Assembly: GCA_945906105.1 (NCBI GenBank)
Contig: CAMDQO010000002.1
Location: 62,001 to 126,000 of the forward strand
Direction of reading: 5' to 3'
Length of the DNA: 64,000 bases
DNA from: Novosphingobium sp. Chol11
GTDB lineage: Bacteria > Pseudomonadota > Alphaproteobacteria > Sphingomonadales > Sphingomonadaceae
This document shows, piece after piece, positions 5,654 through 22,527 of the stretch (position 1 is the first letter of the stretch; every line of letters begins with the position of its first letter). A model generated the notes under the pieces. The model ran no database searches, was not told the DNA's origin, and was given only the letters and a program-made list of their open reading frames with translations. The position numbers were made by a program, and so were the translations under genes.

Positions 5654-5659
5654 ACCGCA

Positions 5660-5674: not shown

Positions 5675-5675
5675 A

Positions 5676-5705: not shown

Positions 5706-5706
5706 A

Positions 5707-5723: not shown

Positions 5724-5755
5724 ACATGCGCAAAAGTCCCGGGAGAGTCAAGACA

Positions 5756-6082: not shown

Positions 6083-6099
6083 GCGCAAGGGAACTTACC

Positions 6100-7347: not shown

Positions 7348-7374
7348 GTGTGACACCACTGCGATGAATTGACC

Positions 7375-7400
7375 CCGGCGGTTGCTTCGTGCGCCGCCGG
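7375..7400 (+). other. Intra-operon hairpin
   Basis: CCGGCGG (7375-7381) and CCGCCGG (7394-7400) form a 7-bp GC stem with a 12-base loop in the 87-bp gap between the P450 and DUF1214 genes. There is no T-tract, so partial attenuation or mRNA stabilisation is more likely than full termination. Confidence 0.45.
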
Positions 7401-7434
7401 TGGCACAATCCTCTCCGCACGAGAGGATCGCCAC

Positions 7435-8613
7435 ATGAACACCCAAATCGCACCCGAAATCCTGACCTACCTTGCGCCGCTTGAAGGTGCGGTGGCGAAC
7501 CTTGCGGACACCTGGCATCCCGAAGACCCGGCATACCGCGCCGATGTCTATCGCCAGACGATGACCAGTCTCTCCTATGCCTATTTCATGTATTTCTACG
7601 CCGATGCCGAGCATCCTGACTGGGCACCGCTGTGGAACCCTGTCTATACGCTCCAGCCCAACCCGGACGACATATACATCCAGTCACCGATCCGGGGTGA
7701 TCTGATTTACCGCGTCTCGGGCAATCGGGGAACGTGCAAGATCCTGTCGTTCACCACGCAGGCAGCGCTTTCGGGAACGGTCGATGCCATGCCGGTGCCC
7801 AATGGCCACAACGAGATCGATTGCGACGATTTCGGCATCAAGCTGGGTGAGGACTTTGAAATCGTGTTCAGCGCGGTGCGGCCCGCTGGATATAAAGGCC
7901 ACTGGGCGCCGCTCCACCCCGCCGCGCGCGGGATGTATCTGCGCTACCGGATGTATGACTGGAACCACGAGACCGATCCGCAACTGGCCATCGAATGCCT
8001 CAGCCCGGTCGGCCACAAGAAGCGCTACAAACCCGAGGAAATTACCCACCGCATTGAAGAAATGGCCAAGTTCCCGGCGCGCAAGACCAAGCTTTACTAC
8101 CCGATGCAGAACGGCGTGAAGGAACGCGTCGGCTTCAATATTTTCGAGCCGGTCCGCTATCCCGGCGCGCTGGTCAAGCAGACCTATTGGCCCGCCTGTT
8201 TCCAGCTGGCAGCGGATGAGGCGCTGATCATCGAGACAGAAATTCCGAACCGCGCGCCCTACTGGAACATCCAGCTCAACGATCCCTATTTCAACGCGCT
8301 CGAATATGTCTATCGCCTCTCCAGCACCAATGGGGCGATGGCCACGCTGTCCAGTGACGGGAAATATCGCGGCGTCATCGCGCTGACCGATCCCGGCGTG
8401 CCCAACTGGCTCGATCCGGCAGGCTACATGGAGGGCGGCATCTATGGCCGCTGGTATGATTGCGATTCAGAGCCGGTGCCGACGATCAAGCGCGTCAAGC
8501 TGGCCGATCTTCGCCGGCATCTCCCCGCCGACACACCGATCATCACCGCGCCGCAACGCGCCGAGGAACTGCGCGTGCGGGTGCGCGCCTGCCAACGTCG
8601 GCGGCGGTGGTAG
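7435..8613 (+). CDS. DUF1214 domain protein
   Basis: A 392-residue protein with a C-terminal DUF1214 domain. The recognisable segments are a Trp-Asn-Ile-Gln-Leu motif, LEYVYRLSSTNG, and VPNWLDPAGY followed by YGRWYDCDSEP. No catalytic residues are established for the family as far as I know. There is no signal peptide, so it is probably cytosolic. The ATG at 7435 has GAGAGGA nine bases upstream. It follows the P450 gene on the same strand, and DUF1214 proteins recur in sphingomonad and actinobacterial catabolic clusters, so a role in the same pathway is inferred. The Arg-rich tail (RACQRRRRW) is unusual. Confidence 0.82.
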   Translation: MNTQIAPEILTYLAPLEGAVANLADTWHPEDPAYRADVYRQTMTSLSYAYFMYFYADAEHPDWAPLWNPVYTLQPNPDDIYIQSPIRGDLIYRVSGNRGTCKILSFTTQAALSGTVDAMPVPNGHNEIDCDDFGIKLGEDFEIVFSAVRPAGYKGHWAPLHPAARGMYLRYRMYDWNHETDPQLAIECLSPVGHKKRYKPEEITHRIEEMAKFPARKTKLYYPMQNGVKERVGFNIFEPVRYPGALVKQTYWPACFQLAADEALIIETEIPNRAPYWNIQLNDPYFNALEYVYRLSSTNGAMATLSSDGKYRGVIALTDPGVPNWLDPAGYMEGGIYGRWYDCDSEPVPTIKRVKLADLRRHLPADTPIITAPQRAEELRVRVRACQRRRRW

Positions 8614-8665
8614 GCGGGTTCGGAGACGGTGATTCAGATTAATCGCAAATAGCCTAACATAGCAG

Positions 8666-8679
8666 ATCGTCCAGACGAT
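8666..8679. promoter_or_regulatory. Palindrome upstream of AraC gene
   Basis: ATCGTC-CA-GACGAT, perfect 6-bp arms, in the 146-bp gap between the DUF1214 gene and the araC-type gene. It could be a regulator binding site or a small mRNA hairpin. No T-run follows. Confidence 0.35.
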
Positions 8680-8759
8680 TGGTAAATTGCTTGCCTGATA
8701 ATCACTGCGCGCCAATAGTGACAGAAACGGGAATAGCCCGAAACACAAGGCGAAAAGCC

Positions 8760-9776
8760 ATGGATGAAAATGGGGAGAACAGGGAAGGTGGCGATGCCCG
8801 CCGTGGCGGCTGGTCACTTTCCGAATTTCTCAATCTGCTCGATCTGCGCGGCCAGACTTGGTGCATCGTCGAATTGCGTGGGTCCGCCGGGTTCAACCTG
8901 CCGGGTGACGATGGCGTAACCTTTTATGGCGTCACCAAGGGCCATGTCCGCATCGCCGGCGTTTCAGGCGGCACGCTTGAACTGGGCAAAGGCCAGGTGC
9001 AGATCATCCTTTCGGGAGAGGCCCATGCCGTGCGCACCGCGCCTGACAGCCCCAGTGCCGTGCTCGATTTTCTGCGCCACGATCAGACCGTCGATACCCC
9101 GCCAACCTTCACCATCGGCAAAGGTGAACTGACCGCGCGGTTGCTCTGCGCGCGGCTTAAGGTCAATTGGCCCGGTGGTCTCAGGCGAGCAGCCATGCCA
9201 TCCGCCATGCTGATCGGCGGCGATCTGCAAGGCGGCAGCATCAATGCAGCCCGGATAGAAACCTTTCAGACCTTTTCGACCGGCCCCGGCTCCACCGCCC
9301 TGCTCACGCGCCTCGCTTCGATGCTGCTGGCGCTGGCACTGCGCAACCATCCCCATTGCCCACTGCTGTTCCGCATGTCGGCGGCCAATGATCCGATTGC
9401 CAATGCGCTGCAATTTGTCGATGCCGATCTCGCCGCCAACTGGAGCGTCGAGCGCATGGCCCGCAAGGTTGGCATGAGCCGGTCAAGCTTTGCCGCGCGG
9501 TTTACCACGGAAGCCGGGCAGACGCCGATGGAACTGCTGACCGAGCGTCGAATGCAGGCGGCGGCTAAAATGCTGCGACAGGGCAGCCTCAAGATCACTG
9601 AGATCAGCGCCCGCGTCGGCTATCAATCCGAAGCCGCTTTCAGCCGCAGGTTCACGCGCTTTTTCGGCCATTCACCCGGCCAGATGCGCGGGCGAAAAGG
9701 CGATGAGCAAAGTGCTGGCGGCTGGCAGAGCTTTCTGACCGCCGAAAATCCCGCATCACTTGCTGTAACGCATTGA
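8760..9776 (+). CDS. AraC family transcriptional regulator (cupin N-terminus)
   Basis: A 338-residue regulator with an N-terminal cupin-like sensor (about 20-200) and a C-terminal double helix-turn-helix of the HTH_18 type (about 225-325). The HTH segments are WSVERMARKVGMSRSSFAARF and the second helix pair around ITEISARVGYQSEAAFSRRF. I start it at the ATG at 8760; an upstream in-frame TTG would add 27 unlikely residues. It is followed 16 bases later by the DUF3237 gene. It may respond to a pathway intermediate and activate flanking catabolic genes. Confidence 0.92.
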   Translation: MDENGENREGGDARRGGWSLSEFLNLLDLRGQTWCIVELRGSAGFNLPGDDGVTFYGVTKGHVRIAGVSGGTLELGKGQVQIILSGEAHAVRTAPDSPSAVLDFLRHDQTVDTPPTFTIGKGELTARLLCARLKVNWPGGLRRAAMPSAMLIGGDLQGGSINAARIETFQTFSTGPGSTALLTRLASMLLALALRNHPHCPLLFRMSAANDPIANALQFVDADLAANWSVERMARKVGMSRSSFAARFTTEAGQTPMELLTERRMQAAAKMLRQGSLKITEISARVGYQSEAAFSRRFTRFFGHSPGQMRGRKGDEQSAGGWQSFLTAENPASLAVTH

Positions 9777-9792
9777 GAGGATGATTGGCCGC

Positions 9793-10230
9793 ATGAGTGG
9801 ATTGCCGCAGGCAGAACTGATGTTCGAAATCGAGGTGGAATGCTCAGCCCCCGTGGACATGGGTGTGATCGATGGCGGCAAGGCCCGGATGATCCCGATA
9901 ACCGGCGGGCGGGCTTTTGGCCCCAAGCTCAATGGCGAAGTGCTTCCCGGCGCTGACTGGTCAATCATGCGCGACACTGGCGTGGCGACAGTTGAGGCAC
10001 GCTATGCACTGAAGGCCGACGACGGCACGATCATCCAGATTTTCAACGCTGCCACCACACAAGTCGGCCGCCCGCGCGAAGACGGGGTGATGATGATCAC
10101 CACCCCGCGCTTCATCGCTCCCGATGGCCCGCACGCCTGGCTGAACCACGGGGTTTATGTCGGCACGCTGATTCCCGACATGACCGGTGGCGGCTTAGCC
10201 GTGAAGATCGGCGTGTTCCGGATGAGCTGA
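9793..10230 (+). CDS. DUF3237 family protein
   Basis: A 145-residue single-domain protein of the DUF3237 family, recognised by the order MFEIEVECS, MIPITGGRAFGPKL and GADWSIMRDTGVATVEARYAL. The family has no firmly assigned reaction that I know of, but its members often sit in aromatic or terpenoid catabolic clusters. Two starts are possible. The ATG at 9781 abuts GAGAGG with no spacer, so the ATG at 9793 is preferred. It sits 16 bases behind the AraC gene and probably shares its transcript. Confidence 0.82.
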   Translation: MSGLPQAELMFEIEVECSAPVDMGVIDGGKARMIPITGGRAFGPKLNGEVLPGADWSIMRDTGVATVEARYALKADDGTIIQIFNAATTQVGRPREDGVMMITTPRFIAPDGPHAWLNHGVYVGTLIPDMTGGGLAVKIGVFRMS

Positions 10231-10257: not shown

Positions 10258-11460
10258 TTAAACCGTAATTCCATACAGCTTTGCCGAATTCAGACTGAGC
10301 ACCTTGCAGCGTTCCTCATGCGTCAGTTCGCTGATCCGCGCTTCCAGATTGTCGATCGGATAGAGCGATGTCGGGTGCGGGAAATCCGTTTCGAACAGGC
10401 AGTTATCGACTCCGACGCGGCGCACCATTTCGGCCATGCTCTTGCCCTTTTCGAACCAGAAGCAGGCGTGAAAATTGCTGCGGAAATATTCCGACGGCGC
10501 CTTTTCAAAGCCCTTGGTCTCGGCAATTTCGGCGAGCTGGTAATCGAGCGCTTCCAGCAGGAACGGCACCCAGCCGATGCCGCTTTCGACCGAGACGAAT
10601 TGCAGACCCTTGAACCGGTCGAGGATGCCCGAATAGATCAGGTTCGACATCACCGCGCCGTTATTGAAAAAGATCATCGCACCCGAAATGCCCGAGCGCA
10701 GATCGCGGGTCAACGAAGGCCAGCCCTGCTTGCCCATCCAGTCAATCGCGGTTTCAGACGCGCCGATATGGAAGTTCACCGGCAGTTTCTTGTCCTCACA
10801 CACTTCCCACAGCGGGAACCAGTGCTCGGTGCCGAGATCAGGAATCTGGTTCCCGTCCTCGTCCTTGCTGGTGTGCGGATCAGAATTGATGTTGATGCCC
10901 TTGAGCCCCATGGCGATGCAGCGCTCGGTCTCCTTGACGGCTTGGCGAACGTCCCACCAGGGCAGCAGCGCCATCGGGAACAGGCGCTGGCCGCTTTCTT
11001 CCTGTAGCTCAGCCATGGCATCATTGTAGATCTGCACACAGGCGAGCCGCAGTTCGGGATCGACACGCGCCGAAGCCTGTCCGCCAAAGCCGAGGATGTT
11101 GGGATAGACGATCTGGGCATAAATCCCCGCCTCATCCATCACAGCCAGCCGGTCTTTCACATTGGACGAGCCGCTGTGGACGTCCTCGAACTGCAATTTC
11201 AGGAACTTGTCGAGATCGCGGACCTTGCCGCCCTCTTTCAGCACCGAACTGTTGGGATGGGCACCGGTGCCGATCGACTGGTTGCCGTCAATCACCCATG
11301 AGCGTGTGCCATCCAGCATCTTTACCTGCGGCACAGAATCCTTGAACTTGGCCGGCGCGCGCTTGGTCCACAGATCGTGCGGTTCGGTCAGGTGCGTGTC
11401 GGCATCAATGATCTTGATGGTTGATTTCGCGTCTGGGCGTTCGAGTGCCGCGCTGGCCAT
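10258..11460 (-). CDS. Amidohydrolase (ACMSD-like, Amidohydro_2)
   Basis: A 400-residue TIM-barrel metal hydrolase or decarboxylase related to ACMSD and gamma-resorcylate decarboxylase. The N-terminal IIDADTHLTEPHDLW (residues 18-31), the central NFHIGAS and the C-terminal FETDFPHP carry the likely metal and catalytic residues. I start it at the ATG at 11460, where GGAG lies six bases upstream; a longer in-frame reading to 11553 lacks family similarity. It is the last of the minus-strand series running from 19741. Decarboxylation or hydrolysis of a ring-derived acid is plausible but unproved. Confidence 0.9.
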   Translation of the reverse strand: MASAALERPDAKSTIKIIDADTHLTEPHDLWTKRAPAKFKDSVPQVKMLDGTRSWVIDGNQSIGTGAHPNSSVLKEGGKVRDLDKFLKLQFEDVHSGSSNVKDRLAVMDEAGIYAQIVYPNILGFGGQASARVDPELRLACVQIYNDAMAELQEESGQRLFPMALLPWWDVRQAVKETERCIAMGLKGININSDPHTSKDEDGNQIPDLGTEHWFPLWEVCEDKKLPVNFHIGASETAIDWMGKQGWPSLTRDLRSGISGAMIFFNNGAVMSNLIYSGILDRFKGLQFVSVESGIGWVPFLLEALDYQLAEIAETKGFEKAPSEYFRSNFHACFWFEKGKSMAEMVRRVGVDNCLFETDFPHPTSLYPIDNLEARISELTHEERCKVLSLNSAKLYGITV

Positions 11461-11566
11461 GTCAGTCTCCTCTATGTGCAGCCTGACTAGACCCGCCAGC
11501 CGCACAGGCCAATCGCCGCCAGCCCGCGCACCCTGCCCTATCGTCCAGCCCAAACGTCAACGGAGC

Positions 11567-12592
11567 TCAAGCTGGACAGGCGAGCGCTTCATCCAGACTT
11601 TCGAGCAGCTTTGGCACTTCGGCCAGCGCGCGCAAGGCATCGTTGAGATGGGTGCAGCCCTGCGGCCCGCGCAACTGATCCAGCACCGATTCGCGGATCT
11701 GAGGCAGTGGTGTGCCGATCAGGCGCTTGGCATTGGGGATCGCGCCGGGGCATTCGCCAAACGGCAGCACGCGCGGTTCCGGCTCAAGACTGTCAATGCA
11801 ATGCGTCACGGGATCGATGCTGGCGCGGACGATATATTCATGCAACGCCGCCCGCCCGCCTTCGCGGCGCGCTGCGCTGTCCTGAAATGAAGCTTCGATG
11901 CCGACGGAGCCATCGTGCTCACGCCAGACATCGATCCGGCGCGCACGGCGGAATGACAGGCCATCATGCTCGGGGAAGGCGTGCCAGCCGCCCGGATCGG
12001 CCGGATTGCGCAGCTCAAACCCGTCGGCCATCGGTGTATCGGTCATCTGGCTGCGATCCTGCAGCGCGCTCGATCCGGGACGGAAACCCCAGCAGACGCC
12101 TTCGCGGTCCTGAAACTTGGCCAGCTGTTCGGGCGGCATCAATTCAATCATCCGGTCCAGCCAGTCCGCCTCCCACTGCGACAAGGCCCAGCTGGAAACG
12201 AGGCTGGTGCCCGAAATGTCATCGAGCAGCAGATAGAGCGGTGAAGCCTCGGCAATCAGCTGCGGCACCGCTTCGCGCAGCACCATTCGAAGGTGCCCGC
12301 CGCCACGTTCTCCAACCAGCTTTGCCAGACCGGCAGGTGCGGGATCGGCGCTGATTGCCGTGATCGCGCGATCATTGCTGATCTGCGCAGTCATGCTCGC
12401 CTCGGCCCGGATGATGTCATCCCCGCCATCGGCGCCACGCGCGATAATATCACGGGCACGCCCTTCCATGGTGCGCGGCCCCATCGGGCCTTCCGTCCAT
12501 ATCACATCAATGCTGGTGGTGCGGCGGATCGAGGCGGGGCGGCGGACCGGTGAAGGATTGGCGCTGGAGCGCATTGGCGGCGGAATGTTCAT
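11567..12592 (-). CDS. DUF2889 family protein
   Basis: A 341-residue protein whose C-terminal two thirds match the DUF2889 pattern: a charged RARRIDVWRE segment, GIEASFQDSAAR, a HEYIV segment, then RVLPFGECPGAIPNA and GCTHLNDALRALAEVP. The conserved ECP and THLND motifs may be functional residues, but no reaction is established as far as I know. It overlaps the MFS transporter stop by four bases (ATGA) and is therefore translationally coupled to it. DUF2889 proteins recur in sphingomonad catabolic clusters with SnoaL and CoA enzymes. The first 30 residues are low-complexity (Pro/Arg/Ser) and a later start is possible. Confidence 0.82.
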   Translation of the reverse strand: MNIPPPMRSSANPSPVRRPASIRRTTSIDVIWTEGPMGPRTMEGRARDIIARGADGGDDIIRAEASMTAQISNDRAITAISADPAPAGLAKLVGERGGGHLRMVLREAVPQLIAEASPLYLLLDDISGTSLVSSWALSQWEADWLDRMIELMPPEQLAKFQDREGVCWGFRPGSSALQDRSQMTDTPMADGFELRNPADPGGWHAFPEHDGLSFRRARRIDVWREHDGSVGIEASFQDSAARREGGRAALHEYIVRASIDPVTHCIDSLEPEPRVLPFGECPGAIPNAKRLIGTPLPQIRESVLDQLRGPQGCTHLNDALRALAEVPKLLESLDEALACPA

Positions 12593-13824
12593 GCCGTGCC
12601 TCTGCCCGCTTCCGCACGATCAGGCAAACGCAGAAACAGGAAGCTGCCGAACAGCACCAGTCCCGAGGTGAGCCACAGGAACGGCGTGAAGGTGTCATAG
12701 ATGGCCAGCAGTCTGCTGTTGAGCAAGACGCCGCTGATCGATGCAATGTACAGCGCGCAATAGCACATGCCGAGCGCCGTTCCGAACACCTCGATGCGGA
12801 AAAAGCGACCGACCAGGAACGACAGCAAGTCACCCTCAGCCCCCACAGTTACGCCGACGAGGAACACTGCGGCGGCAATGACCCAGCCGCTGTCGAGAGG
12901 ACTGGCGAGCAGGGCCAGACCGAATGCCGGGAGCACCATCGACACCGTAGCGACGATCCGCGCCGGATAATGATCAAGCGCAAGTCCGCAAGTGATCCGG
13001 CCGATCAGCGTCCCCAGCGAATAGATCTGCAGCATCCGCGCCGCTGCCATCGGATCAAATCCCTGCTCCTTGATAAGCAGGACGAATTGCGAGCCGTGGA
13101 GCGGAGTGTGGATCGTCGTGAGCAAAACCCCGGCGAAGATCGTCCAGAAAACTTTGCTACCCAGAACTTCACGGAAGTGCCGCTCCTTGGGCGTGCCCAC
13201 AGAAGCCTTGGCGCGGACCGGCGCAACCCCGCATCCGGGCGGGATCAGGGCAATAGCCGCCAGGCCGCCGATGAGGACAAATATGGCCAGCGCATTGTAG
13301 CCGGCCCTCCAGCCGTGTTCCGCAATGTAATCGGTTATGAACGGCGGCGCGATGATGCCCGTCAGCGCCGGTGCGCTCATCACGATGGTCAGCGCCAGCC
13401 CCCTCGCGTTTTCAAACTTATCGACGATCAGGCGCGTGTAGGTCACCGGGCTGGTCAGGCAGCCGACCATGAGAATGCCCGCGGAACAGGCGAAATAGTA
13501 ACGGAAATCGCCCTTCAGGAATGAAAACAGATAGATCACGATCGGCAGCAGCAAGACGCCAGCCAGCGCCATCCGCTTGGCACCGAACCGGTCAGTGAGC
13601 CGGCCAGCGATCGGCATGGTTGGCAGTGTCACCAGCATGGTGAAGCCGATCAGCGCAAAGGTCGATCGCGCCCAGCCAAAATCCTTGATCAGGAACGGCG
13701 CAAAGATGCTGGTGATGTAGGAGAACATCTGCAGCCCCACCGCCATGCCCAGACTGGCCGCTGCCAGCACCCGCCAGTTACGCCGCAATTCGCCCAGATA
13801 TTCGCCTTCAACGGCCACCGGCAT
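12589..13824 (-). CDS. MFS transporter
   Basis: A 411-residue major facilitator with about 12 hydrophobic segments and the loop 2-3 signature GRLTDRFGAKR. It resembles monocarboxylate/oxalate-type MFS proteins that import organic acids with protons. I place the start at 13824 (MPVAVEGEYLG) with GGGG just upstream; the longer in-frame reading to 14043 runs into the inverted repeat of the MITE and is not credible. The gene is coupled to the DUF2889 gene. Its position suggests uptake of the cluster's substrate or export of an intermediate. Confidence 0.9.
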   Translation of the reverse strand: MPVAVEGEYLGELRRNWRVLAAASLGMAVGLQMFSYITSIFAPFLIKDFGWARSTFALIGFTMLVTLPTMPIAGRLTDRFGAKRMALAGVLLLPIVIYLFSFLKGDFRYYFACSAGILMVGCLTSPVTYTRLIVDKFENARGLALTIVMSAPALTGIIAPPFITDYIAEHGWRAGYNALAIFVLIGGLAAIALIPPGCGVAPVRAKASVGTPKERHFREVLGSKVFWTIFAGVLLTTIHTPLHGSQFVLLIKEQGFDPMAAARMLQIYSLGTLIGRITCGLALDHYPARIVATVSMVLPAFGLALLASPLDSGWVIAAAVFLVGVTVGAEGDLLSFLVGRFFRIEVFGTALGMCYCALYIASISGVLLNSRLLAIYDTFTPFLWLTSGLVLFGSFLFLRLPDRAEAGRGTA

Positions 13825-14002
13825 GTCCCCACCACATCTTGTTATTTGCGCCAAGTGTTGACGCAAAGCCGCGCTTTGTCGAGCCGCGCTGCCGCCGACA
13901 GACATGGCCGATGATCCACAATGGGCATTGAGCGTGGGGACGATGCCAGCCAGAACAAGCGGGCGTTTATCGAGTATCGAAGCCGGAGTGGCGGGAGAGT
14001 TA

Positions 14003-14290
14003 GGGTCAGGACCTATTAACCGCACCTTCGAGGTTTGAGTCAAAATGGCTCAGTGCAAGGAAGGAAGGCGCAGTAATATGCGGATATTTCAAGGCTTCCT
14101 GACGCAGCAATTTTATCCTGAGCTTCGCCGAAGGGGGGCCATTTTGGCCAAATCCCTAAGGGACGCCAGAAAGGCTTCCATCTCAGACAGAAATACCCTT
14201 GGAAAGGCAATAAGCCTTCCCGGCGGGAATTTCCGCCCGATATGTTCGCCATTCTGACGCCTCGAAGGTGCGGTTAATAGGTCCTGACCC
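14003..14290. mobile_element. MITE-like element with 31-bp perfect terminal inverted repeats
   Basis: The ends (14003-14033 and 14260-14290) are exact reverse complements, beginning GGGTCAGGACCTATTAACCG. Each is flanked by TA (14001-14002 and 14291-14292), which fits a TA target duplication as in IS630/Tc1-mariner elements. The 226-bp interior has no credible transposase, so this is non-autonomous. It lies between the PPOX gene and the MFS gene. The right TA plus the element's last base form the TAG stop of the PPOX gene; removing the element and one TA would restore TAA at the same codon. Confidence 0.75.
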
Positions 14291-14757
14291 TAAGGCCCAA
14301 CCCCGCCCAGCTTGTGGTGATCCCAGCTCACCACCTTTTCGGGATGCACGACAACGACGACGCGCTTTTCCGCCATCTTCGCCGTCTGTGCATCGAGCGC
14401 CTCTGTCGACAGATCGGGGAAATGGTGGCCTATCAGCAGCCGCATCAGATCGAACAGGCGCGGGTTTTCCGTGACGATCTCGGCCCGGCCATTGACCGAA
14501 ACACCGCGCAGCGTGCCATAGGTCGTGCCGTCCTCGGCGAGCACCGCCACGCGCGGATCGCGCTCAAGATTCACCACTTTTTGCGATTTGCCATAGGTTT
14601 CGAACATCAACATGCCCTCATGCACCGCGAACCACACGGTGGTGAGGTGCGGTTCGCCATGCTTGCCCAGCGTTGCCACTTGCAGGTTCTGGGCAGAGGC
14701 GAGGAAGGCGGAAATCTCCGCCTCGCTCATGCGAACGATGTCTCGTGCTTTGGCCAT
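14290..14757 (-). CDS. PPOX-class (pyridoxamine 5'-phosphate oxidase-like) flavoprotein
   Basis: A 155-residue split beta-barrel protein expected to bind FMN, F420 or heme. Landmarks are the N-terminal VATLGKHGEPHLTTVWFA strand, KVVNLERDPRVAVL, and the C-terminal KVVSWDHHKLGG. The family often reduces unsaturated or aromatic substrates, but the specific role here is unknown. The start has AAGAGAT about six bases upstream. The stop codon TAG is built from the boundary of the MITE. It is followed downstream by the MFS-DUF2889 pair, now separated from it by that element. Confidence 0.87.
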   Translation of the reverse strand: MAKARDIVRMSEAEISAFLASAQNLQVATLGKHGEPHLTTVWFAVHEGMLMFETYGKSQKVVNLERDPRVAVLAEDGTTYGTLRGVSVNGRAEIVTENPRLFDLMRLLIGHHFPDLSTEALDAQTAKMAEKRVVVVVHPEKVVSWDHHKLGGVGP

Positions 14758-14815
14758 GTGTTATCTCTTGTTTGTTTCAAAAAGACTGAAACAGAAGCGG
14801 CACCAGTAAAACTAC

Positions 14816-15340
14816 TCAATCCCCGTCGCGTGCGTCAATCGCATTCAGGAAAGAAAGGTGCCCAGCCTGCGCTTCTCCCTTCAGCGAATCGTAAACCGTA
14901 TCGAAGCTGACGCCGGGAATCGTCTCCTTCACCCGGTCATTGCCAATGGACCAGACTACCCGGCAGACACGCTTGCGGATATGCCAGCCGGAGTGGAGCC
15001 GCGCCCATTCATCGTCATACCAGCCAGTGCCGTCCCACAGCGGACCACCCTCTGTGCCATGACGGATCAGCCGCCATGAGCCATAGGTCAGACTGTGGGC
15101 GCGATCACCCATCACCCGGACATTGTGATTGGTCATGACATGCTGTGTGGCATCAAACGGTGCGTGGAAGGCGGCGAAATCAGCTTTGAACTGTGCAAGG
15201 TTCTTCCAGTGCGCCGATCCGCCAAAATCGGCATCGACATATTCGGTGAACACCTGATCAAACAGATCCCAGCGCTGCGAATCGACGCCAAGGCCATAAA
15301 GGTTGAGCTTGCTGATGATCGCTTCATGGTCAGTCATCAT
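14816..15340 (-). CDS. NTF2/SnoaL-like protein 1
   Basis: A 174-residue alpha+beta barrel protein of the nuclear transport factor 2 superfamily (SnoaL_4-like). The N-terminus reads EAIISKLNLYGLGVDSQRW, then DLFDQVFTEYVDADFGG. Such proteins act as small-molecule isomerases, hydratases, epoxide hydrolases or cyclases, or as subunits of ring-hydroxylating dioxygenases; the reaction here is not evident. Two adjacent ATG codons (15340, 15337) follow AAGGAAG. It lies 17 bases downstream of the MaoC-type dehydratase gene and is likely co-transcribed. It is one of four NTF2-like genes in this series. Confidence 0.85.
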   Translation of the reverse strand: MMTDHEAIISKLNLYGLGVDSQRWDLFDQVFTEYVDADFGGSAHWKNLAQFKADFAAFHAPFDATQHVMTNHNVRVMGDRAHSLTYGSWRLIRHGTEGGPLWDGTGWYDDEWARLHSGWHIRKRVCRVVWSIGNDRVKETIPGVSFDTVYDSLKGEAQAGHLSFLNAIDARDGD

Positions 15341-15357
15341 TAAGAGCTTCCTTTGCT

Positions 15358-16548
15358 TTACACGCCCAGCGAAACCTCTGCCGTGCCGGTGAGGATCACA
15401 TCACCATCCTGCGTCGTCATCACCGTCTTCACCTTCACCACCGGCACACCATGGGCCGACATATCCAGCTTCTCGGTCACTTCACCGTCGATATAGGTAA
15501 CATCGCCTTCGAAAGCCGGGCTGCGGAACTGCGTTTTTGAATGCCAGATATAGCCATCATGCCCCGCCCAATAGGCAATCGCATCCAAAGCCCAAGCATT
15601 CATCGACGAGCCATAGCCATAGGTTCCACCCATCCCGACATTCTCGGCCTTTTCGGAGTTGATGTGGCCTGAAGATGGCCCGTGATAAAGCCCGTCACCA
15701 TGACGCGGATCAATTTTGCGCATATCGTGATCATAGGTCATGTCCTTGGCGAAACCGGCGTCTTCCTTGGCCGGATCATAGGCACCCTCGGGCACATTCC
15801 AGCGCCAGGTGCCCCAGATATTCTGGCGATGGGCGCGGCATTCATTGGCGAAAGTGACCACAGAGTGCGGTCCAACCACCCGGCGCGGCAGCTTGTCACC
15901 CACCTGCACTGAGGCATAGCTTGGCGTCACGCCCTCACGATTTGACAAGATCCATTCGTGACGCAGCTTGTGTACCTCGGCCAGCTCTGCCTTATCCCAC
16001 TTCTTGGGGCTGCGCTTGTCCTTGCCATAGACGCCGCGCTTGTTGGCTTCTTCCACCAGATAGCGGATCGAAGTGGCGCGCTCCTTGGCGACCAATGCGC
16101 CGTGCTGGTTGCGGTGGACGGTATCGCCGTTGGCAAACATCGTCGGCCCGGCAAAGGCGGTTTCAGTAACTTTGTAACCAGCAAAGCGGCGATCCTGCAC
16201 CAGCTTGTCACCGGGGCGCACCGGGGTGCCATAGAACCACCACTCCTCGCCCGCGAAGATCAGATGGGTGCCGGGGATATTGCCGACACAGGAAGGATGG
16301 CAGCCGTGGCCATAGTCCATCGCAACCGTGAAACTTTGCGGCGCGATGATGCCGCCGAATTTGGATTTGCGGGCGAATTCCTCATCCCAATGTATCGGGT
16401 TGGCATAGTCGAGCGCCTGCACCCAGCGGCGGATATCGGTGGCGTTGCAGGGATCCCACATCTCGGCAAAGACGATCTGCTTGCCGATCCACTTGTCGAC
16501 ATCGCTGGTATCGAGCTGGGGTGCATTATTGTGGCCCGCTTCAGCCAT
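15358..16548 (-). CDS. FAS1-like/MaoC-type dehydratase
   Basis: A 396-residue protein with an N-terminal FAS1-like dehydratase (MaoC_dehydrat_N) hotdog domain at about 15-180 and a second hotdog-like half at about 215-395. The N-terminal half contains VQALDYANPIHWDEEFA and GGIIAPQSF. The AlDYaNPiH-type motif resembles the hydratase-2 Asp-x4-His pair. It probably hydrates or dehydrates an enoyl-CoA or an analogous thioester. GGAGAT lies seven bases before the ATG. With SnoaL 1 downstream it forms a two-gene unit. Known double-hotdog relatives act in mesaconyl-CoA, itaconyl-CoA and steroid side-chain pathways. Confidence 0.85.
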   Translation of the reverse strand: MAEAGHNNAPQLDTSDVDKWIGKQIVFAEMWDPCNATDIRRWVQALDYANPIHWDEEFARKSKFGGIIAPQSFTVAMDYGHGCHPSCVGNIPGTHLIFAGEEWWFYGTPVRPGDKLVQDRRFAGYKVTETAFAGPTMFANGDTVHRNQHGALVAKERATSIRYLVEEANKRGVYGKDKRSPKKWDKAELAEVHKLRHEWILSNREGVTPSYASVQVGDKLPRRVVGPHSVVTFANECRAHRQNIWGTWRWNVPEGAYDPAKEDAGFAKDMTYDHDMRKIDPRHGDGLYHGPSSGHINSEKAENVGMGGTYGYGSSMNAWALDAIAYWAGHDGYIWHSKTQFRSPAFEGDVTYIDGEVTEKLDMSAHGVPVVKVKTVMTTQDGDVILTGTAEVSLGV

Positions 16549-16726
16549 GATTTTATCTCCAATTTCAGCTTTGCACGCTGCCTTCCACGCGCGCGCCGGT
16601 CAATCTCGGCAATAGACGCGAGGTGATCGGCAATATCCGCAAATGCTGCCAATCGCTGCGGGAACAAAGCTGTCGCTGGCGCATTTTGTCTGGTGACAGT
16701 TCTTACCCTTGCCGGAGTGCCATCAC

Positions 16727-16873
16727 ATGTGGGCCATTGCCATCGTTCTGCTGATCCTGTGGGTGCTGGGCGTTGTCGCCTTCAAGGTGACTGCCGGGAT
16801 CATTCATGTACTGCTGATCGCGGCGCTTGTCGTTTTCGTGGTGAAGCTGGTCAAAGGCCGCGGCGCAGCCTGA
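16727..16873 (+). CDS. Small membrane protein, lmo0937/DUF5670 family
   Basis: A 48-residue protein starting MWAIAIVLLILWVLGVVAF, with two hydrophobic segments separated by a short FKVTAGI turn and a basic end VKLVKGRG. This matches the lmo0937 family of tiny inner-membrane proteins, often stress-induced and of unknown role. CGGAG lies nine bases upstream of the ATG. It is the only plus-strand gene between two minus-strand blocks and ends ten bases before the convergent NTF2-like gene. It is probably a stand-alone gene with no part in catabolism. Confidence 0.75.
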   Translation: MWAIAIVLLILWVLGVVAFKVTAGIIHVLLIAALVVFVVKLVKGRGAA

Positions 16874-16883
16874 CTGCGTAAGT

Positions 16884-17360
16884 TCAGCCGTCGGTATTTT
16901 CTATCGCCGTCTCAAACAGCCCGTCTGGCGAAACCCAGTCCTTGCGGACGCGGCGCAGCGCGATCAGCCATTCGCCGCCTACCTTGCGGAAATCATCGAT
17001 ATAGACGCCGCAATGATCAGGGCCGATGTCGGTCCAGGCCGCCCAATAGGTGCGCGCTTTTGCCGTGTCCGGTCCGGTCAGATCGATCTTGCAGGTGCCC
17101 AGATGATGCCGAACGAAGCTGGCGCGGTGGACGGTGTCCTGCCCCGGTTCGCGGCTCAGCCAGCGGTTCTGCCACGCCCGGATCGCCTCGCGGCCTTCAT
17201 AGCGAAAAATGAAGTCACCGGGTGCGCGTTCGGACTGGATGATGCCGTCCTCGGTGAAGCAGGCGGCGTAATCATCCACCTTCAGCCGATCACCGCTGAC
17301 ATTGTATTTCGCCAGGGTATCGCGAATGGCCTCGCGGGCCAGCAGCTCGTCAATCGTCAT
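16884..17360 (-). CDS. NTF2/SnoaL-like protein 2
   Basis: A 158-residue SnoaL-like protein. The N-terminal helix LLAREAIRDTLAKYNVSGDR, then YAACFTEDGI and RYEGREAIRAW, are typical of SnoaL_4 members. The reaction is unknown; relatives catalyse isomerisation, dehydration or lactone chemistry in polyketide, steroid and terpenoid metabolism. Its start overlaps the stop of the next upstream gene by four bases (ATGA), so the two NTF2-like proteins are probably made in equal amounts and could form a heteromer. Confidence 0.84.
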   Translation of the reverse strand: MTIDELLAREAIRDTLAKYNVSGDRLKVDDYAACFTEDGIIQSERAPGDFIFRYEGREAIRAWQNRWLSREPGQDTVHRASFVRHHLGTCKIDLTGPDTAKARTYWAAWTDIGPDHCGVYIDDFRKVGGEWLIALRRVRKDWVSPDGLFETAIENTDG

Positions 17361-17797
17361 GCCTGCTTTTCCCCGCGCGGCATCACATAGACGTCAAGGT
17401 GGCGAAGCCTGTTGTCCGCACCAAATTCGTAAATCGTCACGGTATTGGAAACATCGGTCACACCGCCGCGCGTGTTGCGTTCTTCCAGTTCAAGGATGAC
17501 GCGGCCCGGCATTTCGGTGACATGGCGCAGTGTGCCCTCCCAATCGGTGAAACCGCCATATTGCGTCACATAGGAACGGTAGGTCGGCCAATCGATCACT
17601 TCTGCCTGCGGTCCGGCAAAAACGCCCTCACGCACGAAGGCCGAGACATCGACGAGCTGCTCTATCTCCTCCCAGTCGGCATCGGTGAGCGTGCTGGCCT
17701 TGGCCTTGCCGACAAGGCGCGTGAACGCTTCACTGTAAGCGATGACCGCGTGGGTCAGTCCGGTGAAGTCGCTTGAGCTTGGCATTTCGTTGGCCAT
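17357..17797 (-). CDS. NTF2-like protein 3 (small, divergent)
   Basis: A 146-residue protein with an NTF2-type pattern: a helical N-terminus, FVREGVFAGPQAEVIDWPTY, VTDVSNTVTIYEFGADNRL and a final beta strand HLDVYVMP. It resembles nuclear transport factor 2-like proteins found next to SnoaL genes in catabolic clusters. GAGGAG lies about eight bases before the ATG. It is translationally coupled to SnoaL 2 downstream and follows the SDR gene by 29 bases. Function is unknown; family placement is less certain than for the other three. Confidence 0.7.
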   Translation of the reverse strand: MANEMPSSSDFTGLTHAVIAYSEAFTRLVGKAKASTLTDADWEEIEQLVDVSAFVREGVFAGPQAEVIDWPTYRSYVTQYGGFTDWEGTLRHVTEMPGRVILELEERNTRGGVTDVSNTVTIYEFGADNRLRHLDVYVMPRGEKQA

Positions 17798-17826
17798 TTA
17801 ATTCTCCTCTTCAGCTGGTATCGACG

Positions 17827-18615
17827 TCAGCTCATCACTTGCCCGCCATCGACATTGATCGATTGTCCGGTGATCGTCCGCGCCTCGTCCGAGGCGAGGA
17901 ACAGCGCCAGGTTGGCCACGTCCTCAGTCGTCGAAAAGGTCCGCAGCGCGACCGAGCCGGTCAGTCCTGCCTTGATCTCGGCGGGGCTCACGCCCTTCTC
18001 TGTGGCGACGCGGTTCATGTAATTGACCATCAATTCTGTCTCGATCGCGCCGGGGACGACGCAATTGCAACGGATGCCGAACTCGCCGACTTCCTTGGCG
18101 ATCACCTTGGTAAGCACGCGCAGCGCGCCCTTGGCAGCGGAATAGTGGCTCTTGCGGACCATCCCGTCCCAGCCTGCGCCAGAGGAGAAATTGACGATCG
18201 CACCGCTTTTGCGTTCGAGCATCGAGGCGTTGAGCACCGCCTTGCTGCACAGCATCGCGGCCATGCAATCGACCTTGTAGGTATCGAGGAAGTTGTCGAC
18301 CGTCTGCTCCCAGATGAACTTGTCGGTGCCGGGAACAGCGGCGTTGTTCATCAGCACGTCGACCTGACCCCAGCGGCTCATCGCAGCCTCGACCATGGCA
18401 TCAACATCGGCTTCATCGGTGACATCGGCCTGCACCGCGACGGCATCGGGGCCAATGATTTCGGCTTCAGCCGCGACCAGTTCGAGCCGCCGCGCAGCCA
18501 TCACAACTTTCGCGCCTTCCGCCACCAGCATCCGCGCCATGATCGGCCCGAGCCCGGTCGAAGCCCCGGTGACGATAGCGACTTTGCCCCCGAACCGACC
18601 AACAGAAAGGCTCAT
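17827..18615 (-). CDS. Short-chain dehydrogenase/reductase
   Basis: A 262-residue classical SDR expected to oxidise a secondary alcohol or reduce a ketone with NAD(P). The TGASTGLG cofactor motif is at about 16-23, NNAA at about 90-93, the catalytic Ser lies in NFSSGAG, and the Tyr-Lys pair in HYSAAKG. The C-terminal INVDGG is typical. Its ATG overlaps the stop of the SnoaL 4 gene by four bases. Tyr, Lys and Ser are all present, so it should be active. The substrate is presumably an alcohol made by the P450 or a SnoaL enzyme. Confidence 0.92.
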   Translation of the reverse strand: MSLSVGRFGGKVAIVTGASTGLGPIMARMLVAEGAKVVMAARRLELVAAEAEIIGPDAVAVQADVTDEADVDAMVEAAMSRWGQVDVLMNNAAVPGTDKFIWEQTVDNFLDTYKVDCMAAMLCSKAVLNASMLERKSGAIVNFSSGAGWDGMVRKSHYSAAKGALRVLTKVIAKEVGEFGIRCNCVVPGAIETELMVNYMNRVATEKGVSPAEIKAGLTGSVALRTFSTTEDVANLALFLASDEARTITGQSINVDGGQVMS

Positions 18616-19106
18616 ATCTCCAGCACCTTGCGCATGGTTTCATGGCTTTCTGGCGAACCATCGAGCGCGCGGTTGAAGCGTTCGGCGATGCGCCAGCCAT
18701 CGGCGGTGCGCGCCAGAGTCCAGTGGTTGACCGCCGCGCGCCACAGGAACCAGCGCTCACCCTCCTTGAGGATCACCACCGAATAGCCGACAGCCTGCGC
18801 CTCATCGCCGTTCACAGTGATCTTGGGCGTCGCGGTCATATGCGCGCAGCCGGTGTTCACCAGATCAAGGTGCCCCGGCCAGCTATACATTCCCGCGATC
18901 TCGTCAGGTGCTTCCAGCCGCTTGGTGCCGCCATCGGGGAGGGTAAAGCTATAGCCGCCGCCGGGCTCCCACAGATCGCCAGCCGGAGCCGCCGTGGCGC
19001 TATCCACCAGCGGGCCGTAGCTCATCAGCAGATTCTGGATTTCAAGCTGATCCTCGGCGCGCTGCAGGCGCCGCTCAAGCTCTAATAGCCGCGCTTCTCG
19101 ATCCAA
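18612..19106 (-). CDS. NTF2/SnoaL-like protein 4
   Basis: A 164-residue SnoaL-like protein with an N-terminal coiled helix (RLLELERRLQRAEDQLEIQ) leading into LLMSYGPLVDS, typical of SnoaL_4 proteins from sphingomonad catabolic clusters. It overlaps the carboxymuconolactone-decarboxylase-family gene by 25 bases upstream and the SDR gene by four bases downstream. Tight coupling in a three-gene unit implies consecutive steps. The reaction is unknown. Confidence 0.85.
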   Translation of the reverse strand: MDREARLLELERRLQRAEDQLEIQNLLMSYGPLVDSATAAPAGDLWEPGGGYSFTLPDGGTKRLEAPDEIAGMYSWPGHLDLVNTGCAHMTATPKITVNGDEAQAVGYSVVILKEGERWFLWRAAVNHWTLARTADGWRIAERFNRALDGSPESHETMRKVLEI

Positions 19107-19741
19107 TCGTCTTGCTCCCCTGGCCGATAGGTTACACCCGGAGCGCGTCCGGACTTGGTCTTGAGATCAAAGCCGATGGCATCGGCCCCGCCTTCGATCG
19201 GCACACCAAAGGCCGAAAGCGCCCAGCTGGTCATGACATAGTGGCCGATGAGGAAGACCAGATCCATCATCTGGTTCTGGTTCAAGGTTTTCGCCAGCGT
19301 GCTCCAGGTCTCGTCGGAAAGGTTGTTCTGGCTGATCAGTTCGCCACAAGCGGAGATGATCGCCACCTCTTCCTCGTTGAAGGAATGCTGGCAATCCGGG
19401 AAATCGCGAATTTGCGCGATCTCTTCCAGCGTGATGCCGGCATTGATCGCATAGCCGACATGGTTGTGCCATTCATAGGGCGAGTTCACCAGCACGGCGA
19501 CGCGCAGCACAACGATCTCAAGCTGCCGCGTGTTCAGCGAGTGGCCGGTCATGAAATACTTGCCCCAATGGCTGAACACCATGCCCAGTGGCGGGTGGTT
19601 CGCCATGACATTGATGATGTTGGTCTTCGAGCCTTCCTCCCATGAATTAGGCTCACCCCAGAACGATTGCACTTCACGCGTGGCGTCGGTCCATGTTTCC
19701 TTGGCGGGCCATTTGATGCGGAATTCATTGGGGACGGACAT
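19082..19741 (-). CDS. Carboxymuconolactone decarboxylase (CMD/AhpD) family protein
   Basis: A 219-residue all-helical protein of the CMD superfamily. The CMD core spans about 60-140, with LNTRQLEIVVLRVAVLVNSPYEWHNHV and AGITLEEIAQIRDFP. The AhpD redox CxxC is absent, so a peroxidase role is unlikely; a decarboxylase, lactonase or isomerase role is more likely. AGAGGAAA lies upstream of the ATG. It heads the minus-strand series (CMD, SnoaL 4, SDR, NTF2 3, SnoaL 2). CMD-family proteins classically act on ring-cleavage lactones. Confidence 0.88.
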   Translation of the reverse strand: MSVPNEFRIKWPAKETWTDATREVQSFWGEPNSWEEGSKTNIINVMANHPPLGMVFSHWGKYFMTGHSLNTRQLEIVVLRVAVLVNSPYEWHNHVGYAINAGITLEEIAQIRDFPDCQHSFNEEEVAIISACGELISQNNLSDETWSTLAKTLNQNQMMDLVFLIGHYVMTSWALSAFGVPIEGGADAIGFDLKTKSGRAPGVTYRPGEQDDWIEKRGY

Positions 19742-20395: not shown

Positions 20396-21157
20396 TCAGG
20401 TGACCGACCATCCGGCATCGACGCAGATCGTCTGGTTGGTGCAATAGCGCGCAATTGGTGCGGCGAAATATAGCACCGCTCCGGCAATGTCCGATGGTTC
20501 GCACATGCCAAGCGCAGGCATTCGCCGCGCTGGTCCCACCGCTTCCGGCCCTTTGGCATTGATCGCGCCGGGTGAGGCAACTCCGCCCGGCAACACGGTG
20601 TTGACCGTAATGCCATGTTCGGCCAGCTCCAGCGCAGAGGCCTTAGTCAGTGCCGCCAGAGCGCCTTTGGAGCCCATGTAGCTCGCCAGCCCCTTGATCG
20701 CCTGACCGCGCAGACTGCACGAGGCGACATTGATAATCCGCCCCCCATTTCCGCTGGCAATCATGCCGCGCGCGCACTCACGCGTCAGCAGGAACGGCGC
20801 GCGGGCATTGATCGCATTGTTGCGGTCCCATTCTTCCGCCGTGCCCTCAAGCAGCAGTTGCCGATCCTGCACCCCGGCGTTGTTGACCAGAATCCAGGGC
20901 GCGCCCAGCCAGCCGGTGATCGCAGCGACCATCTCGACAATCGAGGCTTCGTCGGCCAGTTCAACCGCGAAGGCGTGGGCCTGCAAACCCTCGGCGCGCA
21001 GCCCAGCCGCGACACGTTCTGCCCCGCCATAATCACGGTCCGCCACGGCAACAGTCGCACCCGCCTCGGCCAGCATCCGCACCATGCCAACGCCGATGCC
21101 ACTGGCCCCGCCGGTGACGAGCGCGACCCGGCCCGTCAGGTCAAATGGCCCGCTCAT
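20396..21157 (-). CDS. Short-chain dehydrogenase/reductase coupled to aroG
   Basis: A 253-residue classical SDR with TGGASGIG (about 15-22), NNAGVQD (about 91-97), a Ser in NVASCSLRG, and YMGSKGA as the Tyr-x3-Lys. The C-terminus CVDAGWSVT is an SDR ending. Its start overlaps the aroG stop by four bases, so it is translated behind DAHP synthase. A physiological link to aromatic amino acid synthesis is not known for this family; chance operon membership is possible. The substrate is unassigned. Confidence 0.9.
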
Positions 21158-22527
21158 GCCGCTGCCTTGGCCCGGTCCTGTGCTTCAAGATTGAGCATTT
21201 CGGCCAGCAGGAACGCCAGCTCCAGCGATTGCGCGGCATTAAGCCGGGGGTCGCAATGGGTGTGATAGCGATCGGCCAGAGCCTCGTCGGTGATGGCAAT
21301 CGCGCCGCCGGTGCATTCAGTGACATTTTGCCCGGTCATCTCGATATGCACGCCGCCGGCATGGGTGCCCTCGGCGCGGTGAACGGCGAAGAAGCCGCGC
21401 ACTTCGGCAAGAATGCGCTCGAATGGCCGGGTCTTGTAGCCGCTGGCTGCCTTGATGACGTTGCCATGCATCGGATCGCAGCTCCACACCACTTTGTGGC
21501 CCTCACGCTCAACCGCGCGCACCAGTGGTGGCAGACCGGCTTCCACCTTGTCATGGCCGAAACGGCTGATCAGCGTCATGCGCCCGGCTTCGCGCGCCGG
21601 GTTGAGCACATCGAGCATCCGCAGCAGCGCGTCCGGCTCAAGGCTGGGGCCGCATTTCATGCCAATCGGATTACCCACACCGCGCAGGAATTCGACATGC
21701 GCCGAATCATCGAAGCGCGTCCGATCCCCGATCCACAGCATGTGGGCCGAACAATCGTACCAGTCGCCGGTCAGCGAATCGCGGCGGGTCAGCGCCTGCT
21801 CATAGGGCAGCAGCAGCGCCTCATGGCTGGTGAAGAAACTGGTGCCCTGCAGTTGCGGCACGGTCATCGGATCGATGCCACAAGCCTGCATGAAATCGAG
21901 CGCCTCACCGATACGGTCGGCGGTTTCGGAGAACTTGGCGGCCCAGGGGCTGCGACCGATATGGTCGAGCGTCCACTTGTGGACCTGTCGCAGATTGGCA
22001 TAGCCGCCGGTCGAGAAGGCGCGCAGCAGATTGAGCGTCGAGGCGGACTGGCTATAGGCCTGAATCATCCGGTCAGGATTGTTACGACGGGTTTCCGGCT
22101 CAAATTCAGGGCCGTTGATGATATCACCGAAATAGCTCGGCAATTCCTGGCCATTGATAGTCTCGGTCTGCGCCGAGCGCGGCTTGGCGAATTGCCCGGC
22201 CATGCGGCCAACCTTGACCACCGGCTGCTTGCTGGCAAAGGTCAACACCACTGCCATTTGCAGCAACACGCGGAAGGTATCGCGGATATTGTCCGGGTGA
22301 AACTCGGCAAAGCTTTCAGCGCAATCGCCGCCTTGGAGCAGAAAGCCCCGTCCTTCGGCAACCTCGGCCAGATCAGCCTTCAGCGCGCGCGCTTCCCCGG
22401 CAAAAACCAGCGGCGGAAAGTTCGTCAGCGTGGCTTCGACGCGGCTCAGCGCCTCGGCGTCAGCATAGTCAGGCAGGTGCTTTGCCTGTGCGGATTTCCA
22501 GCTATCGGGATTCCAGTTGCTTGCCAC
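21154..22527 (-). CDS. aroG: Class II 3-deoxy-7-phosphoheptulonate synthase
   Basis: A 457-residue plant/Mycobacterium-type (class II) DAHP synthase, catalysing the first shikimate-pathway step from PEP and erythrose-4-phosphate. Landmarks are [14 protein letters not shown] (with the metal-ligand Cys), [13 protein letters not shown] and [10 protein letters not shown] near the C-terminus. The length is normal for class II. The start is a GTG at 22527 with AAAGGAG nine bases upstream. The gene is followed by an SDR with ATGA overlap. The segment seen in Mycobacterium for allosteric control cannot be judged here. Confidence 0.96.

Follow-up and report, generated by a model that had tools for sequence, protein, structure and literature searches.

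Among described systems, the closest to the locus considered here is bsd I of Caenibius tardaugens (EGO55_16295-16335), a cholate-induced cluster comprising an amidohydrolase, a monooxygenase, Scd4AB, SclA, a MaoC protein given as 'putative Shy1' and a hydrolase (PMC12882949). In the accessible parts of these reports, the 2026 paper names only a putative hydratase of this kind in C. tardaugens (PMC12882949); for Chol11, the side-chain route is described as unsolved and its hydratase is given as absent (PMC8399759). The hydroxysteroid dehydratases Hsh2 and BaiE and the lyases LdpA and PcfL, all of the NTF2 superfamily, come from sphingomonads or, in the case of BaiE, from Clostridium scindens, and are described as removing water or formaldehyde (PMC12175502, PMC12997858). 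The subject here is a run of genes at positions 10258-19741 of a 64,000-nucleotide window, the whole stretch analysed, from Novosphingobium assembly GCA_945906105.1 (contig C2, 62001-126000; the source genome, G000, comprises 3.0 Mb in 59 contigs), and in particular its MaoC-type hydratase gene (MaoC), which is followed by genes for a SnoaL_4/NTF2-fold protein (SnA) and a PPOX-class flavoprotein. We regard it as somewhat probable that the region is made up, as a patchwork, of three catabolic units, of which MaoC-SnA-PPOX supplies a hydratase/dehydratase to a CoA-thioester pathway encoded on a different contig, C7. The best guess at the substrate is a steroid- or bile-acid-like acid, because the gene content resembles that of C. 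tardaugens bsd I; a terpenoid acid would come second.

The components of a bsd I-type set (a CoA ligase, two acyl-CoA dehydrogenase genes, a monooxygenase, an amidohydrolase and MaoC) are present in the source genome, divided between C7 and the window, and their functions are like those listed for bsd I and for the Sphingobium Chol11 side-chain genes (SclA, Scd4AB, Nov2c227/228), as compared by description (PMC12882949, PMC8399759, PMC12175502). In contrast to bsd I, MaoC is here unlinked from the ligase and adjoins an NTF2-fold gene, and C7 adds a 2-oxoacid-oxidoreductase-like gene, class III CoA transferases and a Rieske ferredoxin. The C7 locus, which was compared with chosen homologues and a dioxygenase motif and not by Pfam scan, extends over about 80-109 kb of the contig. 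It encodes (identities to the query homologues in brackets) an amidohydrolase (62%), a Rieske oxygenase (69%), CoA transferases, an acyl-CoA dehydrogenase, a short-chain dehydrogenase (SDR), a KstD-like flavoprotein (73%), a Rieske ferredoxin, two acyl-CoA dehydrogenases (62% and 38%), the ligase (59%), a second FAD protein, a crotonase, an indolepyruvate-oxidoreductase-like protein (68%) and regulators. The ligase, at 96623-98425, is 66% identical to that of Sphingomonas sp. LaA6.9 (G215), and the KstD-like flavoprotein is 75% identical to that of Sphingomonas cavernae (G168), both genomes belonging to the same family as the source genome. The locus is near-colinear with an island on contig C3 of S. 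cavernae, where MaoC directly precedes the ligase; on C7, no MaoC gene lies beside the ligase.

A search of genome contigs with the window MaoC gave 61 named loci at 56-89% identity, hosted by sphingomonads, Solimonas, Halieaceae, Zhongshania, Nocardia and others. Because identity thresholds were set gene by gene and the fetched stretches vary in length, the counts that follow are lower bounds. A C7-type CoA ligase (at least 45% identity) abuts MaoC or lies within 500 bp of it in 38 of the 61 loci, on the same strand in 36, and in six of the MaoC-ligase loci the two matches overlap end to end. In 19 loci SnA follows MaoC on the same strand, and the MaoC-SnA-(PPOX) grouping recurs in other sphingomonads. 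Both neighbours occur together only in L056 (Sphingobium sufflavum), in the row MaoC-ligase-SnA, whereas five loci (L049, L061, L065, L079 and L086) have neither. The remaining genes of the run and its surroundings are rarer beside MaoC: PPOX (at least 50%) and the MFS carrier in nine loci each (the latter on the other strand in L108), SDR2 (at least 55%) in six, DAHP synthase (at least 75%) in four, CMD and SnB in one each, and SnC and SDR1 in none.

Co-occurrence extends the adjacency to whole genomes. The 52 MaoC-positive genomes considered correspond to 50 of the 61 loci plus G168 and G215 (which L051 and L108 represent; nine loci were excluded), and 49 of them carry the ligase at 57% identity or more. 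The misses are G296 (52%), G297 (51%) and G298, whose two ligase fragments (64% and 57%) lie beside MaoC. The ligase was found at the same threshold in all 18 MaoC-SnA genomes tested (L050 left out). Among 249 genomes of the family, it is present in exactly three (G000, G168 and G215), the same three that have MaoC at 70% or more, a coincidence with a chance probability of 4e-7 if relatedness is ignored. On plasmids, MaoC homologues (40-57%; E limit 1e-30) and the ligase (50-53%; E limit 1e-60) turn up in exactly the same four records. Ligase loci of 9-20 kb were fetched from 16 further MaoC-positive genomes, hand-picked and mostly of the MaoC-SnA type. MaoC was absent from 12 of these loci (among them L197, of 9 kb, and L198, where the contig stops at the ligase) and adjoined the ligase in four, including L199, from the same S. 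sufflavum record as L056 and with the same row. The window MaoC is the only close copy in its genome, the next best matches being 43% and 41% on contig C15. These comparisons show a MaoC-ligase link, and given that adjacency and co-occurrence go together with a C7 ligase lacking a MaoC neighbour, the window MaoC is most likely the unlinked hydratase of the C7 ligase's pathway. Residues D47, N50 and H53 are conserved in 98% of 64 aligned MaoC rows and fit the catalytic Asp...His hot-dog motif of the (R)-hydratase/MaoC family. As a separate observation, ligase islands L112, L113, L185, L189-L192, L194-L196, L198 and L200 encode E1 alpha/beta, an indolepyruvate:ferredoxin-oxidoreductase-like protein or the two together, which suggests alternative enzymes for a 2-oxoacid decarboxylation.

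The run itself had been described, in a sequence-only reading, as one tightly coupled series on a single strand. Its open reading frames, the 4-bp overlaps at 12589, 17357 and 18612 and the 25-bp overlap at 19082 were borne out, as were, in Pfam and NCBIfam scans, the protein families, but the single run was not: an intergenic gap of 246 bp (14044-14289) separates modules I and II, and one of 335 bp (16549-16883), which contains an opposite-strand reading frame, separates modules II and III. The boundaries that these gaps mark make three transcription units likely, namely CMD-SnC-SDR-Unk146-SnB, MaoC-SnA-PPOX and MFS-DUF2889-amidohydrolase, which follow one another in the direction of transcription (minus strand) as III (19741 to 16884), II (16548 to 14290) and I (14043 to 10258). 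Simple promoter and terminator scans were uninformative. The features are listed below, with homologues in G172, a genome of the same genus, and L049, a locus of a sphingomonad metagenome-assembled genome.

23-3951, plus strand: CoA operon of acyl-CoA dehydrogenase (its 5' part precedes the window), CitE-like lyase, 4-hydroxybutyrate-CoA-transferase-like protein and enoyl-CoA hydratase.
6079-8613, plus strand: CYP101-like P450 and a 414-aa protein (Unk414), which accompany the CoA operon in G172.
10258-11553, minus strand: amidohydrolase, an Amidohydro_2 metal-dependent hydrolase/decarboxylase-like protein (module I; PF04909, 100 bits; G172 81%).
11567-12592, minus strand: DUF2889 protein (module I; PF11136, 91.7 bits; G172 64%, L049 65%).
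12589-14043, minus strand: MFS carrier (module I; 4-bp overlap with DUF2889; PF07690, 112.4 bits).
14290-14757, minus strand: PPOX-class flavin/F420 split-barrel protein (module II; TIGR03618, 85.4 bits, above the curated cut-off of 79.05).
14816-15340, minus strand: SnA, SnoaL_4/NTF2-fold protein (module II; PF13577, 78.5 bits).
15358-16548, minus strand: MaoC, FAS1_DH/MaoC hydratase of 396 aa, core of module II, probably a double hot dog (PF13452, 97.6 bits; PF01575, 30.4 bits).
16727-16873, plus strand: hydrophobic 48-codon open reading frame between modules II and III.
16884-17360, minus strand: SnB, SnoaL_4/NTF2-fold protein (module III; PF13577, 72.1 bits; G172 93%, L049 91%).
17357-17797, minus strand: Unk146, predicted NTF2-fold protein with no Pfam family (module III).
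17827-18615, minus strand: SDR1, classical short-chain dehydrogenase (module III; PF13561, 171.7 bits; G172 89%).
18612-19106, minus strand: SnC, SnoaL_4/NTF2-fold protein (module III; PF13577, 75.4 bits; PDB 2rfr, E 3e-20; G172 91%).
19082-19741, minus strand: CMD-family protein (module III; 25-bp overlap with SnC; PF02627, 27.8 bits, cut-off 23).
20396-21157, minus strand: SDR2, beside DAHP synthase, a positional anchor of the region.
21154-22527, minus strand: class II DAHP synthase, a positional anchor probably outside the pathway (PF01474, 685 bits).

Gene order in relatives follows the modules. In G172 the order AraC-amidohydrolase-DUF2889-MFS-[crotonase]-PPOX-SnA-SnB-Unk146-SDR1-SnC-CMD-SDR2-DAHP synthase is colinear with the window but lacks MaoC, with a molybdopterin-domain gene in the crotonase-PPOX interval; the best MaoC match in this genome is 46% and the best ligase match 51%, so that it lacks both this MaoC and its ligase. 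SnA, PPOX, SnB, Unk146, SDR1, SnC and CMD can thus persist without the MaoC route. The order in L049 is DAHP synthase-SDR2-CMD-Unk146-SnB-MaoC-PPOX-[crotonase]-MFS-DUF2889-DUF3237, and no SnA, SDR1, SnC or amidohydrolase gene was found in the fetched locus. A crotonase remnant was sought in the gap at 14044-14289, where G172 and L049 have a crotonase gene, and was rejected since no significant match appeared. The same-genus genomes G111 and G218 gave no match for Unk146, MaoC or DUF2889, and the 48-codon reading frame has no match in the 81 loci L049-L129 apart from the stretch of its own genome. Synteny across sphingomonads, proposed in the sequence-only reading as a test of a single route, is therefore found in part: the modules are conserved, but the whole run is not.

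The complete CMD-SnC-SDR-Unk146-SnB block was seen elsewhere only in G172. CMD homologues of 59-61% identity occur in S. cavernae, LaA6.9 and Sphingobium RAC03 and V4, in the last two on plasmids. Between CMD and a lipoyl-domain gene, S. cavernae and LaA6.9 retain a truncated SnB stretch (residues 87-156 and 111-156; L169 7184-7393 and L183 at about 10.5 kb), and given these remnants CMD and SnB seem to be an old pair. Plasmid pBSY17_1 of RAC03 carries an MDR-CoA ligase pair followed by NTF2-SDR-NTF2, the same type of triplet as in module III. It was also observed that a set of CMD, lipoyl-domain and Gfo/Idh genes is conserved in Sphingomonas and on Sphingobium plasmids (L169 4094-8885, L183, L131, L182); on the two plasmids it includes an FAD protein and 2-oxoacid dehydrogenase E1 subunits, and the RAC03 set adjoins homogentisate genes.

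The four NTF2/SnoaL-like genes counted in the sequence-only reading comprise three that exceed the SnoaL_4 cut-off (PF13577, 24 bits) and a fourth, Unk146, which matches no Pfam family at E 0.1 but has a predicted NTF2 fold. Its AlphaFold2 model, built from a 6-row alignment, reaches a predicted local distance difference test (pLDDT) score of 82.1, and Foldseek against the PDB gave a best E value of 6e-6 with TM-scores of about 0.5-0.6; the 50 matches listed are mostly ketosteroid isomerases and epoxide-hydrolase-like proteins, together with designed binders and other small proteins. The model thus predicts an NTF2/ketosteroid-isomerase-like cone. Profile comparison of Unk146 with SnA, SnB and SnC gave no match, a weak test given the shallow alignments. 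Relatives of Unk146 adjoin Rieske oxygenase alpha subunits in two Novosphingobium genomes (L080 1445-5291, L086 3214-7028), in the manner of beta-subunit stand-ins. An orphan Rieske beta subunit was considered and rejected: profile comparison with three beta subunits of the genome, again on shallow alignments, was null and ketosteroid-isomerase and epoxide-hydrolase-like folds rank first in Foldseek, so that only the designation NTF2 fold was kept. The density of such genes, which the sequence-only reading called unusual, is supported insofar as three SnoaL_4 genes within 4.3 kb exceed chance (P = 0.006 if placement were uniform), but clustering is in any case usual for catabolic genes. The whole genome has 19 SnoaL_4 matches, and since 62 NTF2 homologues are reported for Sphingobium SYK-6 (PMC12997858), the density is notable, not extraordinary. 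Although the window SnoaL_4 proteins have the NTF2 superfamily in common with Hsh2/BaiE and LdpA/PcfL, PDB searches at E 0.1 showed no sequence relation to them, returning only 4gb5, 2rgq, 2chc and 2rfr, and no direct comparison was made. In SnA, Tyr15, Asp20, His67 and Arg124 are conserved in 19 of 19 aligned rows. In LinA, BaiE and scytalone dehydratase, Asp/His pairs in comparable positions take part in the reaction.

The neighbouring P450 and CoA operon had been read, by adjacency, as part of the same route, a reading that the comparisons do not support. G172 has the whole P450-Unk414-TetR-SDR3-CoA-operon module (C1:2538-2549 kb), but 1.3 Mb away from the run, and the TetR-SDR3-CoA operon part of the L049 genome lies on a contig separate from the run, so that the adjacency in the window is local. 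In S. cavernae and LaA6.9 the operon and MaoC are some 30 kb apart, and in L104 and L109 3.5-5.7 kb; its CitE-like lyase is present at 60% or more in 41 of the 52 MaoC-positive genomes (in two pieces in G259) and at 70% or more in 19 of the 249 family genomes (E limit 1e-90). It also occurs without this MaoC, in G172 and others, and its link with MaoC is moderate. By family, it has its acyl-CoA dehydrogenase, CitE-like lyase and CoA transferase in common with the itaconate/methylsuccinate cluster (Ict-Ich-Ccl-acyl-CoA dehydrogenase-MmgE/PrpD; PMC12290011). Assignment to that pathway was rejected, as the lyase scores 156.2 bits against the RipC/Ccl cut-off of 375 (NF038242) and neither MmgE/PrpD nor a MaoC-type itaconyl-CoA hydratase was found among the ten genes scanned at 23-10230. 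The estrogen cluster edc, described in C. tardaugens (previously Novosphingobium tardaugens), has a P450, MaoC, acyl-CoA dehydrogenases and an indolepyruvate-oxidoreductase-like gene (on C7) in common with the present genes (PMC7793797); this assignment was likewise set aside, as no thiolase, HMG-CoA synthase or extradiol dioxygenase was found among the 30 window genes Pfam-scanned at 23-30495.

In the proposed route, the C7 CoA ligase would activate a polycyclic or alicyclic carboxylic acid, its two acyl-CoA dehydrogenase-type neighbours would desaturate the CoA ester, and MaoC would hydrate the resulting double bond with its Asp47/His53 hot-dog site. Oxidation of the ring system may fall to the Rieske oxygenase and the KstD-like flavoproteins, SnA may eliminate or shift a hydroxyl group or double bond at its Asp20/His67 site in the same route, and a small, branched dicarboxylyl-CoA fragment would be degraded through the CoA operon. 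Module III could be an add-on, its SDR and NTF2 enzymes acting on a hydroxyl group by oxidation and dehydration, and amidohydrolase-DUF2889-MFS could provide uptake and hydrolysis. The sequence itself shows the module boundaries and the MaoC-ligase link; every reaction, the substrate, and the sharing of a substrate by SnA and module III are what we infer. The earlier proposal of a catabolic route with poorly described steps survives to this extent: the modules look catabolic, and at least MaoC joins a larger, poorly described CoA-thioester set.

Several observations weigh against this proposal. The extradiol dioxygenase motif PS00082 was not found in 15 stretches of the genome plus the window, so that no ring-cleavage step was located. 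Compared with the S. cavernae island, C7 is without not only MaoC but also an MDR reductase gene, a further Rieske gene (29% type), the E1 alpha/beta genes and an alpha/beta hydrolase gene. The KstD-like homologue in L054, 73% identical to the C7 protein, matches NF009478 with E 1.7e-143, but its 478.9 bits fall below the NCBIfam equivalog cut-off of 789. G172 has neither this MaoC nor its ligase yet retains SnA and modules I and III, which argues against a strict dependence of module III on that pair, and L049 has MaoC, with the ligase elsewhere in its genome, but no SnA in the fetched locus. The CitE-like lyase is more widespread than MaoC at 60% or more (50 of 249 family genomes) and falls below that level in 11 of the 52 MaoC-positive genomes. 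The MaoC-ligase co-occurrence figures take no account of the relatedness of the genomes, and the 16 ligase loci were selected by hand, mostly from MaoC-SnA genomes.

The alternative closest in probability, tentative but worth weighing, is that MaoC, the ligase and the C7 genes are simply the sphingomonad bile-salt side-chain pathway known from bsd I, with its SclA, Scd4AB and MaoC 'putative Shy1'. An amidohydrolase, a monooxygenase, a two-subunit acyl-CoA dehydrogenase, a CoA ligase and MaoC are all found in C7 plus the window and in the Zhongshania locus L095 (amidohydrolase, Rieske oxygenase, Rieske ferredoxin, two acyl-CoA dehydrogenases, MDR reductase, MaoC and CoA ligase in one row), and the KstD-like gene of C7 fits as well. 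The likeness to SclA, Scd4AB and EGO55_16330, however, is one of function lists and not of sequence, and the L095 ligase reaches 156.8 with the CasG model (steroid-24-oyl-CoA synthetase), whose cut-off is 750, and scores higher with several general acyl-CoA ligase models. Moreover, the indolepyruvate:ferredoxin-oxidoreductase-like gene and class III CoA transferases of C7 are not named in the bsd I section of PMC12882949, and the family, the source genome included, has paralogous sets of MaoC (40-46%) and ligase (about 52%). A terpenoid or alicyclic acid in place of a steroid is a doubtful alternative. The nearby CYP101-like P450, an amidohydrolase whose best PDB sequence matches are DitZ (8uyr) and PtmU3, and a KstD-like FAD protein that also matches 4-oxocyclohexanecarboxylate dehydrogenase models would suit it, but the P450 (at least 45%) and the amidohydrolase (at least 40%) occur in none of the 61 MaoC loci, with only weak matches (up to 33% in nine and up to 27% in three, respectively). 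No literature on the protein DitZ was found in the open-access subset. Equally questionable is a distinct sphingomonad route for steroid or terpenoid acids, in which MaoC would hydrate the product of the ligase and dehydrogenases, SDR-coupled NTF2 proteins would perform eliminations that others achieve by aldolases or thiolases, and the now unlinked loci would have been shuffled in sphingomonad evolution.

That SnA, SnB, SnC and Unk146 are unrelated small NTF2 proteins gathered in a flexible region, and not the enzymes of one pathway, is unlikely, even though the genome-wide number of SnoaL_4 matches, the near absence of SnB and SnC from MaoC loci (one and none of 61), the restriction of Unk146 to three of 249 family genomes (the source genome counted) and the persistence of SnA and module III in G172 without MaoC would all agree with it. 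The SnA-MaoC adjacency in 19 loci, the NTF2-SDR-NTF2 triplet directly after MDR-CoA ligase on the RAC03 plasmid and the SnB remnants beside CMD in two Sphingomonas genomes speak against that reading. Least probable, and in our view improbable, is the continuous pathway or operon at 10258-19741, extended to the P450 and CoA operon, that the sequence-only reading had proposed. Eleven genes on the same strand with several 4-bp overlaps, an order largely retained in G172, and a span of about 60 kb in S. cavernae that takes in CMD, MaoC and the CoA operon favour it, but the run's gene content is unlike among the window, G172 and L049, the P450/CoA module is distant in G172, and the CoA operon is on a separate contig in the L049 genome. 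One operon, in particular, was rejected because of the two gaps, the opposite-strand reading frame and the breaks in synteny.

If the patchwork serves a steroid-like acid, the co-occurrence of MaoC and the ligase yields a concrete hydratase candidate, with an NTF2 partner, that can be tested by knock-out; it would also mean that searches confined to gene neighbours miss the hydratase, the gene having moved. No paper on a Novosphingobium degradation gene cluster joining SnoaL and MaoC was found in the open-access subset of the literature.

As regards the remaining features, the AlphaFold2 model of the DUF2889 protein (pLDDT 44.3) was too poor for use; a remote SCOP link of this family has been reported, the superfamily not being named in the accessible part of the source (PMC4520260). 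Outside the run, the window contains a tRNA-Sec gene at 54589-54682, and a SelB gene lies on the same contig (L121 4317-6275), which together represent parts of a selenocysteine system in a sphingomonad.

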